This document shows, one piece after another, positions 4,286-30,279 of a DNA stretch of 64,000 nucleotides. Position numbers and translations under genes: made by a program. The stretch is from Luteitalea sp. TBR-22 (GTDB taxonomy: Bacteria > Acidobacteriota > Vicinamibacteria > Vicinamibacterales > Vicinamibacteraceae), in the NCBI RefSeq assembly GCF_016865485.1, contig NZ_AP024452.1, positions 642,501 through 706,500 of the forward strand. The letters are read 5' to 3'. The notes under the pieces are model-generated. The model was given only the letters and a program-made list of their open reading frames with translations, ran no database searches and was not told the DNA's origin. How positions within the stretch are numbered: position 1 is the stretch's first letter; every line of letters starts with the position of its first letter.

Positions 4286-5488
4286 ATGCCCGACACTCCC
4301 CTGACCGTCCTCTGCGTCGCCACGTACGAGAAGGGCGCCGAGTTCCTGCGCGAGTGCAAGCGGCAGGGGTGCACGGTCCTGCTCCTCACGACCGAGGCGC
4401 TCAAGGACCTTCCGAGCTGGCCCCGCGAGGCCATCGACGAGGTGTTCGCCATCCCGGCCGACATCTCGCGCGATGCCCTGCTCAAGGGCGTGAGTCACGT
4501 GGCGCGCACGCGACGTCTCGACCGCATCGTGGCCCTCGACGACTTCGACGTGGAGACGGCGGCGCTGCTGCGCGAGCACTTGCGTGTGCCCGGCATGGGT
4601 GAGTCCACGGCCCGGTACTTCCGCGACAAGCTGGCGATGCGCCAGCGGGCCCACAACCAGGGCATCCTCGTCCCGCCGTTCACGAGCGTGGTCAACGACG
4701 CCGACGTGAACGCCTACCTCGACGGGGTGCCCGGTCCCTGGCTGGTCAAGCCGCGATCGCAGGCGGCGGCGATCGGCATCAAGAAGGCCGAGACCCGCGA
4801 CCAGGTCTGGCAGCACGTGCACGACCTCGGCGACATGCGCTCGTTCTCGCTGCTCGAGCACTTCGTCGCCGGCGACATCTACCACGTCGACTCGATCGTC
4901 TGGGACCGGCAGGTGGTGTTCACGGCGGCGCATCGGTACGGCTCTCCGCCGTGGACGGTGGCGCACCAGGGCGGCATCTTCACCACCAGCACCGTGGACC
5001 GCGCGTCGGAGCACGCGCAGGTGCTCGACGCCCTCAACCGGCGCCTGCTCGACACGCTCGGCATGGTGCGCGGCGTGACCCACACCGAGTTCATCCACGG
5101 GCACGACGGCCGGTTCTACTTCCTCGAGACGGCGGCGCGGGTCGGCGGCGCGTTCATCGTCGACGTGATTGCGGCGGCCACGGGCCTGAACCTGTGGCAC
5201 GAGTGGGCGAAGCTGGAAGTGGCGGGGGAGCACGGCCGCTACGAGGTGCCTGCGCACCGCGAGGACTACGCGGGGTTGGTGCTGTCACTGGCCAGGCAGG
5301 AGCACCCGGACACGTCTGGCTACGACGACCCGGAGATCGTGCAGCGCATCGACCTGCCGCACCACGCCGGCCTCATCGTGCGGAGCGACTCGCCGGCCAC
5401 CGTGCAGGCCCGCCTCGACGACTACGCCCGGCGATTCCTCGAGGATTTCTACGCGTCCGCGCCTGCCCCTGACCGGGCGACGCACTGA
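4286..5488 (+). CDS. ATP-grasp domain carboxylate-amine ligase-like protein
   Basis: The product is 400 aa. The N-terminal third is a Rossmann-like preATP-grasp domain (TVLCVATYEKGAEFL). RDKLAMRQRAHNQGI leads into the ATP-grasp fold, with PWLVKPRSQAAAIGIKK as the ATP-binding loop. HTEFIHGHDGRFYFLETAARVGG contains the Glu/Asn-type Mg-binding strand seen in carbamoyl-phosphate-synthase-like ATP-grasp enzymes. Such enzymes join a carboxylate to an amine with ATP, but the substrates are unknown. The ATG at 4286 follows a short leader and fits the start of the first beta strand. The TGA stop is the first heptamer of the repeat array that follows. Confidence 0.85.
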   Translation: MPDTPLTVLCVATYEKGAEFLRECKRQGCTVLLLTTEALKDLPSWPREAIDEVFAIPADISRDALLKGVSHVARTRRLDRIVALDDFDVETAALLREHLRVPGMGESTARYFRDKLAMRQRAHNQGILVPPFTSVVNDADVNAYLDGVPGPWLVKPRSQAAAIGIKKAETRDQVWQHVHDLGDMRSFSLLEHFVAGDIYHVDSIVWDRQVVFTAAHRYGSPPWTVAHQGGIFTTSTVDRASEHAQVLDALNRRLLDTLGMVRGVTHTEFIHGHDGRFYFLETAARVGGAFIVDVIAAATGLNLWHEWAKLEVAGEHGRYEVPAHREDYAGLVLSLARQEHPDTSGYDDPEIVQRIDLPHHAGLIVRSDSPATVQARLDDYARRFLEDFYASAPAPDRATH

Positions 5489-5600
5489 CGTTTGACGTTT
5501 GACGTTTAACGTTTAACGTTCAAGGCCCAAGGCCCAAGGCCCAAGGCCCCAGGCCCAAGGCCCCAGGCGTCAAACGTCAAACGTCAAACGTCAAACGTCA
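5486..5600. repeat. Composite heptanucleotide array (TGACGTT, CAAGGCC, inverted TGACGTT)
   Basis: This is an unbroken 7-bp register: five units of TGACGTT/TAACGTT (5486-5520), seven units of CAAGGCC/CCAGGCC/CCAGGCG (5521-5569), then four units of TCAAACG and a TCA remainder (5570-5600), the reverse complement of the first block. The two outer blocks could form a long stem with the CAAGGCC block as loop. The array begins inside the stop codon of the ATP-grasp gene and ends at the base before the stop codon of the convergent pilX-like gene. Confidence 0.95.
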
Positions 5601-13635: not shown

Positions 13636-14672
13636 CGCAGTCCGCGGCCCGCCCGCACGGGACCCTCAGCGGGGGCTCGCCCACGATCCAGCCCTGCATC
13701 AGCGGCCTGGCCACGTACCTGCCGCCGCGCACGCTCACCAACGCCGACCTCGAGAAGATGGTCGACACCAACGACGAGTGGATCCTGCAGCGCACCGGCA
13801 TCCGCAAGCGCCACATCGTCGATCCGGGCGTCGCCACGTCGGACCTCGCGGCGGAGGCGGCCCGTGCGGCCATCGCGCGCGCCGGGCTCACGCCGGCCGA
13901 CATCGACGTGATCATCGTCGGCACCACCACGCCCGACACGATCTTCCCGAGCACGGCCTGCCTGCTGCAGCACAAGATCGGCGCGAGCAAGGCCTGGGGC
14001 TTCGACCTCGGCGCCGCCTGCTCCGGCTTCACCTACGCGCTGACGACGGCGGCCGGCTTCGTGAGTGCAGGCATGGCGAAGCACGCGCTCGTCGTCGGCG
14101 CCGACGTGATGTCGAGCATCATCGACTACACCGACCGCACCACCTGCGTGTTGTTCGGCGATGGCGCGGGCGCGGTGATCGTCTCGCCGTCGCCCGGCGA
14201 CGGACTCGGCCTGATCGACTTCACCCACGAGGTGGACGGCAGTGGTGGCCCGGCGCTGTGCATGCCGGCCGGCGGCTCGAAGATGCCGGCCAGCCACGAG
14301 ACGGTGGACAAGCGGATGCACTACGTCCACCAGGACGGGCAGACCGTGTTCCGGTTCGCGGTGCGCAAGAACGAGGAAGTGTGCAAGCGCCTCCTCGAGC
14401 GGAACGGCCTCACCTCGGCCGACCTCGACCTGTTCGTGTCGCACCAGGCCAACAAGCGGATCATCGAGTCGGCCGCCCAGCGCCTCGGCGTGCCGCCCGA
14501 GAAGTTCGTGCTCAACATCGGCGAGTACGGCAACACCACCGCCGCGACCATCCCGCTCGCGCTCGACGACGCGCAACGCGACGGCCGCCTGAAGAAGGGC
14601 GACCTCGTGATGCTCGCGTCGGTCGGCGCCGGCTTCACGGTGGGCTCGGTGCTGCTCCGCTGGGCGTACTGA
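13629..14672 (+). CDS. fabH: Beta-ketoacyl-ACP synthase III
   Basis: The product is 347 aa. FabH condenses acetyl-CoA with malonyl-ACP to start fatty-acid synthesis. [16 protein letters not shown] is the family hallmark. The active-site Cys is residue 131 in [13 protein letters not shown]; the partner His is in SHQANKRII and the Asn in [15 protein letters not shown]. The GTG start at 13629 overlaps the ruvB stop, adding about 17 residues before the usual FabH start, so a later start is possible. The ruvB-fabH coupling is less common than ruvB-queA. The TGA stop is the first unit of a TGACGTY array. Confidence 0.95.
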
Positions 14673-14697
14673 CGTCTGACGTTTGACGTCTGACGTT
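14670..14697. repeat. Heptanucleotide repeat TGACGTY x4, starting in the fabH stop codon
   Basis: The units are TGACGTC, TGACGTT, TGACGTC, TGACGTT. The first three bases are the fabH stop. This is the same unit as the array at 5486. Confidence 0.93.
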
Positions 14698-14775: not shown

Positions 14776-14820
14776 AAGAAGGGCGGCTGGATCTCCCGAT
14801 CCTTCCGCCCTTCTTCCTTT
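14776..14820 (+). terminator. Probable terminator between convergent fabH and the regulator
   Basis: An 11-bp perfect stem AAGAAGGGCGG / CCGCCCTTCTT is followed by a pyrimidine stretch CCTTTCCC on the plus strand. Weak T-runs on both sides mean it could serve both directions. Confidence 0.6.
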
Positions 14821-14823
14821 CCC

Positions 14824-14865
14824 GACTCCCGACTCCCGACTCCCGACTCCCGACTCCCGACTCCC
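14824..14865. repeat. Heptanucleotide repeat GACTCCC x6
   Basis: Six perfect tandem units followed by a degenerate seventh (GGATTCC). The same unit appears inside the epimerase gene at 27,659. Confidence 0.95.
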
Positions 14866-14887
14866 GGATTCCGGTCCCCGGCTTCTC

Positions 14888-26126: not shown

Positions 26127-26576
26127 TCAGCCGCCGGACTGCAGGGCCCGGACCAGCACCCATCCCATCAATATCGCCCTCAGGCTCCACGCGACCGTCC
26201 GAACCCAGTTCGTGGCGACCAGCGCGGAGTGGACCCTGGCGTCGTACCCGGAACCCAACTGTCCGTGCAGCGGCACCTGCACGAATGCTGTAGAGAGCCA
26301 GATGACCCCGACCAGCCCCGCGCCGACCCACGCCCAGCGTGCCGGAAATGCGGCAGGTCTCGCTTGCACGAGCCACAGGGCCGTGGCCAGTTCCACGAGC
26401 ATCGCCGGACCGACGACAGGGGTGATCAGGCGCGAGTGGGCGTCGGCGAAGGCGGGGTAGGCGGCGCGATCGGCGTGCGAGAAGAGCGGGTAGTGGACGA
26501 CCTGGACCATCCAGATCAGCCCGGTCATGAACCACGTGGCCGCCGCGTTGGCGACCAGCACCGCGGTCGTGCTCAT
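26127..26576 (-). CDS. Small integral membrane protein
   Basis: The product is 149 aa with about four hydrophobic helices: VLVANAAATWFMTGLIWMVQ, VVGPAMLVELATALWLVQ, WVGAGLVGVIWLSTAFV and TVAWSLRAILMGWVLV. WMVQVVHYPLF and the LNxxQPL-like pattern resemble DUF1772/DUF4149-like small membrane proteins, but I cannot name the family with confidence. The ATG at 26576 overlaps the stop of the epimerase gene by 4 bp, so the two are co-translated. Function unknown. Confidence 0.8.
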   Translation of the reverse strand: MSTTAVLVANAAATWFMTGLIWMVQVVHYPLFSHADRAAYPAFADAHSRLITPVVGPAMLVELATALWLVQARPAAFPARWAWVGAGLVGVIWLSTAFVQVPLHGQLGSGYDARVHSALVATNWVRTVAWSLRAILMGWVLVRALQSGG

Positions 26577-28045
26577 GCGACCGGCGTGGCCTCGACGCGA
26601 CCCAGCGTGAACCTCAGGGCGTCCTCGAGCCGGGGGTGCGAGAACACGTAGCCCGCCGTGGTCAGGGCGGCCGGCAGCACGCGCTTGCTGCTCAGCAGCT
26701 CGGCCTCTGCCATCTCGCCGAACAGGGTGGTCAGCACGAAGCCGGGCACGGGGAAGATCGTCGGGCGATGGAGCACGCGGCCCAACGTGCGGGTGAACTC
26801 GGCGTTGGTGACCGGGTGCGGCGAGGTCACGTTCATCGGGCCGACGATGGTGTCGTGCGTCAGGGCGAAGAGGATGGACCCGAGCACGTCCTCCATGCCC
26901 ACCCAGCTGTAGTACTGCTCGCCGGAGGCCAGGCGGCCGCCGACGCCCAGGCTGAACGGCAGGCGCATCTTGCCGAGGGCGCCGCCGCGCGCGTCGAGGA
27001 TGATGCCGAACCGCGGATGGACGACGCGGATGCCGGCCGCTCGGGCCGGATCGGCCGCCGCCTCCCATTCCTGGCACACGTCGGCGAGGAAGCCCTGGCC
27101 GGGCGCGCTCTGCTCGGTGAGGTCCTCGGTCCCGCGGTTGCCGTAGTAGCCGATGGCCGACGCGCTGATGAACACGCGCGGCTTGACGGGCAGCGCCGCC
27201 AGCGATCGCGCGAGGGCCTGCGTGGGACCGACGCGGCTGTCGCGGATCTTCGCCTTGAAGGCCGGCGTCCAGCGGCCGCCCGCGACGTTCTCGCCGGCGA
27301 GGTGGATCACGGCATCGACGGCCCCGAGCCGGTCGGGATCGACAAGCCCGCGCTCGGGTGACCACTGGTGCTCACCCTGGCGCGGCGTGCCGCGCACGAG
27401 ACGGACGACGTCGTGGCCGCCGCCCTGGAGGAACGGCACGAGGGCCGAGCCGACGAGGCCGGTGGCCCCGGTGATGGCGATGCGCATGGCAGGTCCTTGC
27501 CCGTGGCGCGACAGGTCGGCGCGCGTCACCCAGTGACGATACGCGAACATCCGCCGCAACACCCGCTCGACCATCGGCCGCGCTGGCCACGACAGCGGAT
27601 CGAGCGGCAGGCGCCAGGTGACTTCGTCGGTGAGGGTGCACGAGGCCGTGGGATCTGCGACTCCCGACTCCCCACTCCCGACCCCCAACTCCCGTCTCCC
27701 GATTCCCGACTCCCGACTCCCGATTCCCGACTCCCGACTCCCGACTCCCGTCTCGATCCGGTGCACATGACTCCAGTACGCGAACGGCCCCGAGGCCTGG
27801 GTGTCCACGAACTGGCGATCCGCTTCATAGCGCGACGGATCGTGGCGGGCGTCCCAGGTCAGCGTGAGCGGGCCCTGCGAGAGCTCGAGCACCACCTGGC
27901 CGTCGGCGAGCGACCCCGTGCGCGAGCGCACGCGGACGCGATCCCACGGCGGCAGCAGGCGAGGCAGCGCACCGGGCTGGGCGTGCCACGCGAAGGCGCG
28001 GGCAGCATCGACGGGCAGGGCGACGGAGAAGCGGCGTGTGATCAC
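26573..28045 (-). CDS. SRPBCC domain - TIGR01777 family NAD-dependent epimerase fusion
   Basis: The product is about 490 aa. Residues 1-190 are a SRPBCC ligand-binding domain (VITRRFSVALPVDAARAFAWH, LTDEVTWRLPLDPL). The remainder is the TIGR01777 (YfcH-like) epimerase: nucleotide-binding ITGATGLVGSALVPFLQ, HLAGENVAGGRWT, FISASAIGYYGNRG and the C-terminal domain RVLPAALTTAGYVFSHPRLEDAL. Between residues of about 99 and 130 there is a low-complexity insert built on GVGSRES, encoded by a 7-bp repeat. The GTG at 28045 begins the first SRPBCC strand and is preferred; the frame is open further upstream through a terminator and repeats. Confidence 0.88.
   Translation of the reverse strand: MITRRFSVALPVDAARAFAWHAQPGALPRLLPPWDRVRVRSRTGSLADGQVVLELSQGPLTLTWDARHDPSRYEADRQFVDTQASGPFAYWSHVHRIETGVGSRESGIGSRESGIGRRELGVGSGESGVADPTASCTLTDEVTWRLPLDPLSWPARPMVERVLRRMFAYRHWVTRADLSRHGQGPAMRIAITGATGLVGSALVPFLQGGGHDVVRLVRGTPRQGEHQWSPERGLVDPDRLGAVDAVIHLAGENVAGGRWTPAFKAKIRDSRVGPTQALARSLAALPVKPRVFISASAIGYYGNRGTEDLTEQSAPGQGFLADVCQEWEAAADPARAAGIRVVHPRFGIILDARGGALGKMRLPFSLGVGGRLASGEQYYSWVGMEDVLGSILFALTHDTIVGPMNVTSPHPVTNAEFTRTLGRVLHRPTIFPVPGFVLTTLFGEMAEAELLSSKRVLPAALTTAGYVFSHPRLEDALRFTLGRVEATPVA
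27659..27749. repeat. Heptanucleotide repeat GACTCCC x13 inside the epimerase gene
   Basis: Thirteen contiguous 7-bp units (GACTCCC with variants GATTCCC, CACTCCC, GACCCCC, AACTCCC, GTCTCCC) cover 91 bp. Read on the coding (minus) strand they give the heptapeptide GVGSRES in any frame without a stop. Confidence 0.95.
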
Positions 28046-28054
28046 GGGGGAGAC

Positions 28055-28092
28055 GAAAAACGCCGCTCCGCATGGGGGGATGCGAAGCGGCG
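28055..28092 (-). terminator. Rho-independent terminator (minus strand) after fasciclin gene
   Basis: A 13-bp stem with one mismatch (28061-28073 with 28080-28092) closes a loop of six G. On the minus strand it is followed by TTTTT (AAAAA at 28056-28060). It lies between the fasciclin gene and the epimerase start codon and should separate them. Confidence 0.85.
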
Positions 28093-28129
28093 ACAGGACT
28101 TCAAGACGTAACCGTCGGCCCTGGCCGAC

Positions 28130-28232
28130 GGGTGCCCGATGTGTAGGCGTCGGCCTTGGCCCGAAACCAGGCCGTGGGCGTCGACCCTGGCCCGAAACCA
28201 GGCCGTGGGCGTCGACCTTCAGGTCGACGCTC
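28130..28232. repeat. Cluster of GTCGACC-type repeats
   Basis: Two direct copies of a 30-bp element containing GGCCCGAAACCAGGCCGTGG (about 28157-28186 and 28188-28217) run into a full GGCGTCGACCTTCAGGTCGA palindrome at 28205-28232. The latter is identical to the copy at 14701. The cluster sits just after the fasciclin stop. Confidence 0.88.
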
Positions 28233-28239
28233 GGCACAT

Positions 28240-28958: not shown

Positions 28959-30143
28959 ATGCGCGTCGACGAGTTCGATTTCCCCCTGCCCGACGAACAG
29001 ATCGCCCAGCACCCCCCGGCGGTGCGCGGCACGTCCCGGTTGATGGTGCTCGACAGGGCCACCGGCGCCACCACGCTCGGCACCGTGGACGACCTGCCCG
29101 CGCACTTCCGGGCCGGCGACGTGCTGGTCGTCAACGACACGCGCGTGTTTCCCGCGCGCCTGCTCGGACACAGACTGCCCGGCGGCGGGCGCCTGGAATG
29201 TTTGCTCGTGGAAAGGCTCAGGGCTCGAGGCTCGGGGCTCGATGAGGAACGGCTCAGGGCTCAAGGCTCAGGGCTCGAGGAACGGCTCACGGCTCAGGGC
29301 TCAGGGCTCAGAGAGCATTCAGAGGGGGACCTGTGGGAGGCGCTCGTCCACCCGGGGCAGCGGCTCAAGGTCGGCAGCCAGTTCGTGATCGACGCGGGCG
29401 GGAGTCGGCACCAGGGCGGCGGGAATAACGGCGGCGCCGGCGGTGTTATCCATGGGGAGATTGTCGGCCGCGGCAGTCACGGCAAGCGGACGGTGCGCCT
29501 GCGCGCGGAAGGGTTTGCCGACGTCGACACGGCGATCGAGGCCCTCGGGCACATGCCGTTGCCGCCCTACATCAAGCGCCCCGACGCCAGCGACGATCGC
29601 GAGCGGTACCAGACGGTGTACGGCACGCAGCGCGGGTCGGTGGCCGCACCCACGGCCGGGCTGCACTTCACGCCGGGCATGCTCGAGCGCCTGCAGGCGA
29701 TGGGCGTGGAGATCGTGCGCGTGACGCTGCACGTCGGCTACGGCACGTTCAAGCCGGTGCGCGTCGAGCTCGTCGAGGATCACGTCGTCGACCCGGAGCG
29801 CTACGACATCTCCGAGGCCGCGGCCGACGCGATCAACCGCGCGAAGGCCGACGGCCGTCGCGTCGTCGTCGTCGGCACCACCAGCACCCGCGCGCTCGAG
29901 AGCGCGGTCGGCGAGGACGGCCGGGTGCGCGCCGGCGCCGCCACCACGTCGCTCTACATCCGCCCGGGGCACCGCTTCCGCGTCGTCGACGCGCTGATGA
30001 CCAACTTCCACGTGCCGCGTTCGTCGCTGCTGTTCCTGGTGTGTGCGTTCGCCGGGCACCGGCGCGTGATGGACGCCTACGCGCGCGCCGTCGCCGAGGG
30101 GTTCAGGTTCTACAGCTATGGCGACGCGATGCTGATCGTGTAG
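28959..30143 (+). CDS. queA: S-adenosylmethionine:tRNA ribosyltransferase-isomerase QueA
   Basis: The product is 394 aa. QueA transfers ribose from SAM to preQ1 in tRNA during queuosine synthesis. The start [20 protein letters not shown] is diagnostic, as are [61 protein letters not shown] and [18 protein letters not shown]. Between LLVERL and [11 protein letters not shown] there is an insert of about 35 residues made of three near-repeats of the type [12 protein letters not shown], encoded by blocks of a 7-bp repeat. Family members lack this insert. A second Gly/Asn-rich stretch ([16 protein letters not shown]) follows. ATG at 28959. Confidence 0.95.
29215..29311. repeat. Heptanucleotide repeat GGCTCRR in three blocks inside queA
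   Basis: There are three blocks of exactly four 7-bp units each (29215-29242, 29251-29278, 29284-29311), separated by TGAGGAAC and GGAAC. Units are GGCTCAG, GGCTCGA, GGCTCGG, GGCTCAA and GGCTCAC. The reverse-complement unit is found at 9726. Confidence 0.95.
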
Positions 30144-30148
30144 GAGGC

Positions 30149-30270
30149 AATTTGAAATTCGAAATTTGAAATTGATCGGCGGCCGGCCTGTCGGCCTTGC
30201 CGCTCGAGGCATCCGATGGGCTGCGGCGCAGCCGCGCCCCGCGAGAATTTCGAATTTCAAATTTCAAATT
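30149..30270. repeat. Inverted TTTGAAA heptamer arrays flanking a GC-rich spacer
   Basis: The left arm at 30149-30173 has three TTTGAAA/TTCGAAA units; the right arm at about 30245-30270 is its near-perfect reverse complement (TTTCGAA, TTTCAAA, TTTCAAA). The arms flank about 70 bp of GC-rich sequence. They are AT-rich and stand out from the surroundings. They could form a long stem between queA and the cupin gene. Confidence 0.92.
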
Positions 30271-30279
30271 GCCACCGCT

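Follow-up and report, generated by a model that had tools for sequence, protein, structure and literature searches.

The queA gene of Luteitalea sp. TBR-22 (class Vicinamibacteria, phylum Acidobacteriota) contains an in-frame insert built of heptamer blocks. The gene lies in the window, the 64-kb stretch of DNA that was analysed (contig NZ_AP024452.1, positions 642,501 to 706,500). We consider it probable that the insert goes back to one arm of a dispersed repeat resembling repetitive extragenic palindromic (REP) sequences, which landed in queA and was then duplicated in frame, and that the resulting loop is tolerated. The insert in queA is a variant of known repeat biology. The gene and the parts of its insert are as follows, with positions counted within the window.

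28959..30143, plus strand: queA (S-adenosylmethionine:tRNA ribosyltransferase-isomerase), 394 residues plus stop; family PF02547; solved relatives 1yy3, 1wdi and 1vky
29215..29242, plus strand: heptamer block 1, four GGCTCNN units
29243..29250, plus strand: linker 1, TGAGGAAC, 8 bp
29251..29278, plus strand: heptamer block 2, four GGCTCNN units
29279..29283, plus strand: linker 2, GGAAC, 5 bp
29284..29311, plus strand: heptamer block 3, four GGCTCNN units, the sole block of the three with the tail after it
29312..29322, plus strand: element tail, AGAGCATTCAG; the consensus after other arrays is A[AG]AGCAT-C-T-G
about 29396..29443, plus strand: second enlarged stretch of queA; a genome of the same genus, G004, has four intact GGGAGTC heptamers at the same place

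The original prediction had described three in-frame blocks of exactly four 7-bp units joined by short linkers, and this is what the sequence contains. The GGCTC motif starts at 29215, 29222, 29229 and 29236 in the first block, at 29251, 29258, 29265 and 29272 in the second, and at 29284, 29291, 29298 and 29305 in the third, the linkers between them measuring 8 and 5 bp. Tandem Repeats Finder reports 3.1 copies of a 33-bp unit spanning 29204-29309. High-scoring periodic segments in the window number six at lag 7 and none at lags 4-6 and 8-12, and no periodic segment appeared at lags 5-9 in 20 Markov-2 resamplings of the window.

Judged from its sequence, queA of TBR-22 is intact. The protein aligns with positions 2-322 of the PF02547 profile (E 3.6e-121, 404.7 bits versus a curated cut-off of 25) and agrees with all 49 alignment columns that are invariant among 43 relatives, which supports the original claim that the QueA motifs are kept. 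The turn between the strand ECLLV and W126 comprises 41 residues. Since the usual length is 7-8, there are about 34 extra residues, close to the 35 estimated at first. The insert lies in the orientation that has no stop in any of the three frames, while the reverse strand has TGA in all three. Past the tail, the QueA codons for GDLW follow shortly.

The GGCTC repeat recurs elsewhere in the TBR-22 genome (G000), which was sampled systematically over 864 kb (the window and 40 evenly placed stretches). Runs of GGGCTCA, those in queA included, have two units in 27 cases, three in 5, four in 13, five in 3 and six in 2; among the 16 runs of at least three units outside queA, eight have four units, six have three and two have five. 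The tail motif directly follows 13 of the 40 GGCTC runs of at least two units, a count that includes the three queA blocks, only the last of which has the tail, compared with 0.0019 per random site. A simple microsatellite would have no conserved unique sequence attached to it in this way. For four-unit runs the motif is found in 6 of 11 cases. The tail consensus was derived from 20 copies and is biased, because the query contained the tail. In a set of 30 loci chosen by similarity, all oriented, the motif is present at 24 and four units are present at 18.

The repeat also has a characteristic setting. A convergent inverted partner lies within 200 bp beyond the tail side for 5 of the 16 sampled runs outside queA and on the other side for none; at the similarity-chosen loci the corresponding figures are 10 and 0 of 30. 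Runs of at least three units start within 30 bases past the end of a gene on the same strand in 10 of 19 cases, as against 0.0555 at random, and are near a gene end on the other side in 2 of 19 (the 19 include the three queA blocks, and gene ends were called by open frame and by GC content at third codon positions, GC3). A 60-bp query that included the tail gave 59 matches in G000, 52 in G004, 19 in G001, 4 in G003, 1 in G002 and 2 in G071, and none in G005, G006 and G007. These and the other per-genome match counts are rough: 40 candidate regions per genome were scored, and a palindromic repeat may count on both strands. The counts are highest in G000 and G004, the two genomes that have the queA insertion. 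In view of the shared tail, the four-unit habit, the sites after stop codons and the convergent partners, a dispersed REP-like element is the most likely source of the queA insert.

The source would have been one arm of this repeat, four GGCTCAG heptamers followed by the tail A[AG]AGCATNCTG. Convergent pairs, about one third of cases, could form a hairpin. One arm would have landed in the turn that joins two QueA strands, oriented for coding, and the distribution of the insert supports placing this putative event in an ancestor shared by G000 and G004. In the lineage of TBR-22, the host Glu-Arg-Leu codons together with the array would then have been duplicated twice. The repeated unit in the protein reads V-ERL..., E-ERL..., ERL..., that is, the host Glu-Arg-Leu codons and four heptamers, and the steps are first 36 and next 33 bp, each divisible by three. 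The repetition fits duplications of these two lengths better than the addition of single heptamers, which would break the frame. In linker 1, GAGGAAC is similar to the host GTGGAAA that precedes block 1 and may be a duplicated host flank. G004 has the same insertion with a different repetition, of a unit of about 27 bp as read by eye. The outcome would be a flexible loop tolerated by QueA, for which we put forward no function.

An unlikely alternative is that of an ordinary microsatellite: slipped-strand replication would have lengthened a GGCTC heptamer that originated within the queA turn. It would agree with the strong enrichment in G000 of period 7 (with its harmonics) and of no other period, and with the drift of the heptamer units within a constant register, as seen by eye. 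It would not explain why the tail past the third block is common to copies elsewhere, why the blocks have exactly four units, or why the repetition steps in queA take in host codons. Slippage alone would also not yield arrays in both orientations, such as those in the queA insert of another genome, G007. In favour of slippage, four other heptamer families (GGGAGTC, CGGCGTT, CGGGCAC and TGACGTT), inspected by eye, show no shared tail and look like plain arrays, and the tail motif is absent after 27 of the 40 sampled GGCTC runs.

These last two points also count against an origin from a dispersed REP-like arm, and several others weigh against it. A gene for a REP-associated tyrosine transposase (RAYT) was sought in G000, where two weak Y1_Tnp matches were found, neither of which has arrays within 1.5 kb on either side. 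An inverted half is missing from the queA copy, as it is from 11 of the 16 sampled runs. G001 has 19 matches to the repeat, yet no insert in queA. The closest insert-free QueA, that of G001, is only about 71% identical in protein and provides no close empty site at the DNA level, so that the insert junctions are inexact and a target duplication is unreadable. Because blocks 1 and 2 lack the tail, we infer the order of insertion and duplication. Among the relatives described below, 10 of the 25 enlarged QueA of the class have no recognised repeat, and part of the enlargement may thus have other causes. Finally, the repeat in the G007 insert is commoner in G071 (62 versus 47 matches), though the queA insert of G071 is of another type.

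The second enlarged stretch of queA begins about 75 bases past the tail. Its length ranges from 4 to 20 residues among distant QueA, so this region is variable too. GGGAGTC arrays are present elsewhere in the TBR-22 genome, and from its sequence the stretch is possibly a decayed array of this kind.

An AlphaFold2 model built with 44 sequences has a mean predicted local distance difference test score (pLDDT) of 90.8, and in a Foldseek comparison solved QueA chains rank first. Over residues 91-120 the pLDDT drops to 69, 63 and 53 in successive ten-residue blocks, between flanking strands at 78-88 and 124-130, and it falls to 52 where the second enlarged stretch lies (residues 151-160). According to the model, the insert is probably a flexible, low-confidence loop between two strands of an otherwise well predicted protein. 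The original prediction had proposed a flexible loop created by repeat expansion. The flexible loop agrees with the model, whereas repeat expansion alone probably did not create it, given the tail of a dispersed element and a repetition that fits 36- and 33-bp duplications with host codons. At the RNA level, the predicted fold of the queA insert has a z-score of -2.45, with 7 of 200 shuffles equally good.

The same residues in distant phyla would have pointed to an ancestral loop; they were searched for and not found in the QueA compared. A scan of contigs yielded 552 confirmed relatives, and among the best 80 the turn has 7 or 8 residues in 78. The two exceptions are L101, with 20 residues, which corresponds to G149, a genome of the same class as the window (Vicinamibacteria), and L109, with 16. 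Within the genus, where the comparison covers other species, the insert is present in G004 and absent from G001, G002 and G003. G001 has in addition a second, distant QueA-like gene (C1:6227507-6228517, E 1.7e-39, 137 bits).

Within the class, 193 genomes were examined and 182 had a QueA match. A set of 51 QueA was assembled from the first 31 listed, 18 long matches picked by eye, G142 and G003. At least five extra residues are present at the turn in 25 of the 51, a share raised by the hand-picking of long matches, which enriches the set for long loops; the turn has 11-43 residues in 26 and 7-8 in 25. By eye, the inserts are GGCTCAG heptamers in two cases, CAACTCC/GGAGTTG in four (some in both orientations), CAAATCC in two, GGCACCC in one, GGGGTCAGACCCC-like palindromes in five (of which L087 is weak) and a CACAGAT-type repeat in one. 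In a quick QueA tree, with SH-aLRT (Shimodaira-Hasegawa-like approximate likelihood ratio test) support only, G000 pairs with the G004 sequence (L036) at a value of 82. The insert, scored as present or absent, takes five changes on this tree, at least four of them forced by well-supported branches, and insert type takes 16; gains and losses are not separable. Enlarged turns occur in four distinct parts of the class tree, that of TBR-22 included.

Dispersal of the insert repeat in the host genome was checked for four hosts, TBR-22 (G000), G007, G094 and G072. The G007 insert has 47 matches in G007, 62 in G071, 10 in G147 and 6 in G137, and none in G001, G004 and G022. The G094 insert has 22 matches in G094, 5 each in G022 and G082, 3 in G007 and 2 in G101, and none in G004 and G072. 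The G072 insert (L098), a CACAGATG/CACGGAT-type repeat, has 38 matches in G072 and 0 in four other genomes. The same QueA turn is thus enlarged repeatedly, often by repeats dispersed in the respective host, and the most likely reason is that the protein is highly permissive at this place. Within a single conserved enzyme, the turn provides a natural series in which repeats were inserted in frame, and shows how repeat DNA turns into protein sequence.

It could be argued instead that the enlarged turn is useful in this class, for example in a contact to tRNA or to a partner, and that the repeats are merely retained raw material. Enlargement in four parts of the class tree, versus 7-8 residues in 78 of 80 other QueA, would suit such an adaptive loop. 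Nevertheless, we regard it as very unlikely, as insert types differ between families, their lengths vary between 11 and 43 residues, the model shows a disordered loop, and G001, G002 and G003 of the same genus do without it. An ancestral QueA loop that was lost in many lineages is the least credible explanation: enlargement does recur in several families of the class, and the tree cannot separate gains from losses, but 78 of 80 QueA from other records are short, insert types match host-dispersed repeats in the four hosts checked, and three genomes of the same genus have no insert.

The proposed origin from a dispersed REP-like arm invites comparison with several known repeat systems. A REP is typically an imperfect palindrome. 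Like REP doublets forming hairpins (REPINs), the GGCTC repeats are short, dispersed and mostly extragenic; a part of them, 5 of 16 sampled runs outside queA, may form inverted pairs with a spacer that could fold into hairpins, while the queA copy has no partner. Unlike in REPINs, the arm consists of a heptamer array and a tail, only about one third of copies have a partner, the gene of a conserved enzyme contains one of the arms, and the two weak Y1_Tnp matches in the genome have no arrays within 1.5 kb. In our judgement the GGCTC element may work like the arm of a REPIN; membership is not claimed, because no RAYT gene could be linked to it and the majority of copies have no partner. REPINs are described as inverted REP doublets, and tandemly repeated REPs are named as well (Bertels and Rainey 2011, PMC3116915).

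The GGGNATC heptamers of Xanthomonas and Nostoc prefer four units and form close convergent pairs; they are mostly intergenic and nearer to the end of the upstream gene, with 7-11% at least partly in open reading frames (ORFs), and the four units have been linked to G-quadruplexes (Rehm et al. 2015, PMC4692102). The TBR-22 heptamers share the preference for four units, the convergent pairs and the sites near gene ends. They differ in the unit found in queA (GGCTCNN), in the coexistence of many families and in the shared tail after part of the arrays. The TAACTGA heptamers of Beggiatoaceae are likewise dispersed and mostly intergenic and have stops in all three frames of one orientation. Their copies in ORFs are mostly towards the ends of proteins (MacGregor 2015, PMC4679880), whereas the TBR-22 insert sits in the middle of a domain of a conserved enzyme.

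Two further systems are elements of other build. In Rickettsia palindromic elements, a palindromic unit of about 150 bp is frequently found within ORFs (review of miniature inverted-repeat transposable elements, MITEs, PMC10969869). As in queA, in-frame repeat DNA there adds peptide to unrelated genes; in contrast, as read by eye, only about 4 of 82 TBR-22 arrays are truly intragenic, and the queA insert has no inverted half. The BrickBuilt MITE contains a 23-bp minisatellite between a leader and a tail, has small inverted ends and is always intergenic (PMC4596501). It resembles the TBR-22 repeats in that a tandem repeat is part of a small inverted-repeat element, but the TBR-22 arrays form the arms and one copy is inside a gene, whereas the BrickBuilt repeat lies between leader and tail. 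Literature searches on heptamer repeats and on Luteitalea tandem repeats listed no published account of heptamers in the class Vicinamibacteria.

A broader idea, which we hold only tentatively and consider doubtful, is that the heptamer arrays of this lineage are in general the arms of mobile miniature elements, whose machinery would make or keep about four 7-bp units whatever their sequence. Element anatomy is present in at least two families, GGCTC with its tail and a 131-bp AATTTGA element next to queA (see below). If true, this idea would account for the seven-base and four-unit rules reported for distant bacteria, and the one QueA turn would be a natural trap that records independent insertions. 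The anatomy of the elements, with tail, convergent partner and a place after stops, is a testable alternative to G-quadruplexes as the reason for four units.

Period 7 stands out well beyond the window. In 800 kb of G000 there are 62 lag-7 segments. Any other lag between 2 and 13 gives 0-5, harmonics show at lags 14, 21 and 28, and three random sets for this genome contained none at lag 7. G001 has 58 lag-7 segments in 400 kb and at most 10 at any other lag up to 13. The excess is weaker in relatives: 20 genomes, sampled in 20 stretches of 20 kb, gave 11 segments at lag 7 and 4, 3, 5 and 4 at lags 6, 8, 9 and 12. In a strict test across all heptamer families, 6 inverted pairs and 1 direct pair were counted among 112 arrays of G000, and 2 of each among 75 arrays of G001. 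Self-complementary heptamers were considered as a cause of inverted pairs and rejected: they make up 6 of 30 families in G000 (4.9 expected) and 4 of 41 in G001 (5.7 expected).

Arrays inside genes look like rare exceptions. An open frame with GC3 above the GC content at second codon positions is found on both sides of 21 of the 82 arrays of all families in the 864 kb, and by this heuristic combined with reading by eye four are truly intragenic: those in queA, in a short-chain dehydrogenase/reductase (SDR) fusion, in an M17 aminopeptidase and in a biotin protein ligase. The M17 aminopeptidase of the same genome has four in-frame GGGAGTC heptamers in its catalytic domain (L211:11590-11620), and in the biotin protein ligase domain an in-frame heptamer array comes soon after the KWPNDV stretch (L213:1902-1931). 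The SDR fusion array and the 131-bp element lie in the window.

27658..27754, minus strand: GACTCCC array of about 14 heptamers in frame, in the polyketide-cyclase-like domain of the SDR fusion ORF 26573-28237
30146..30276, plus strand: 131-bp MITE/REP-like element directly after the queA stop, with inverted AATTTGA-type heptamer arms of about four units each

The 131-bp element has at least 40 distinct near full-length places in G000, its own copy included (40 of 249 candidates were scored), and the other copies are 82-91% identical. G004 has nine matches, two of them near full-length, and G001 has three that are arm-sized; six other genomes searched gave no match. No target duplications are obvious among 41 copies, an absence that is unproven, as the arm ends found by string search are misplaced in many rows. 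The alignment of the 41 copies stops sharply at both ends, the flanks beyond being unconserved, and the RNA fold of the element is far more stable than that of shuffles (z -7.15).

Two more groups of arrays were seen in the window. At 14669-14697 (TGACGTC type) and 14820-14880 (GGGAGTC type), two arrays are about 120 bases apart. At 5486-5600, TGACGTT, CAAGGCC and inverted CGTCAAA arrays follow each other in a row, possibly as a heptamer stem with a heptamer loop.
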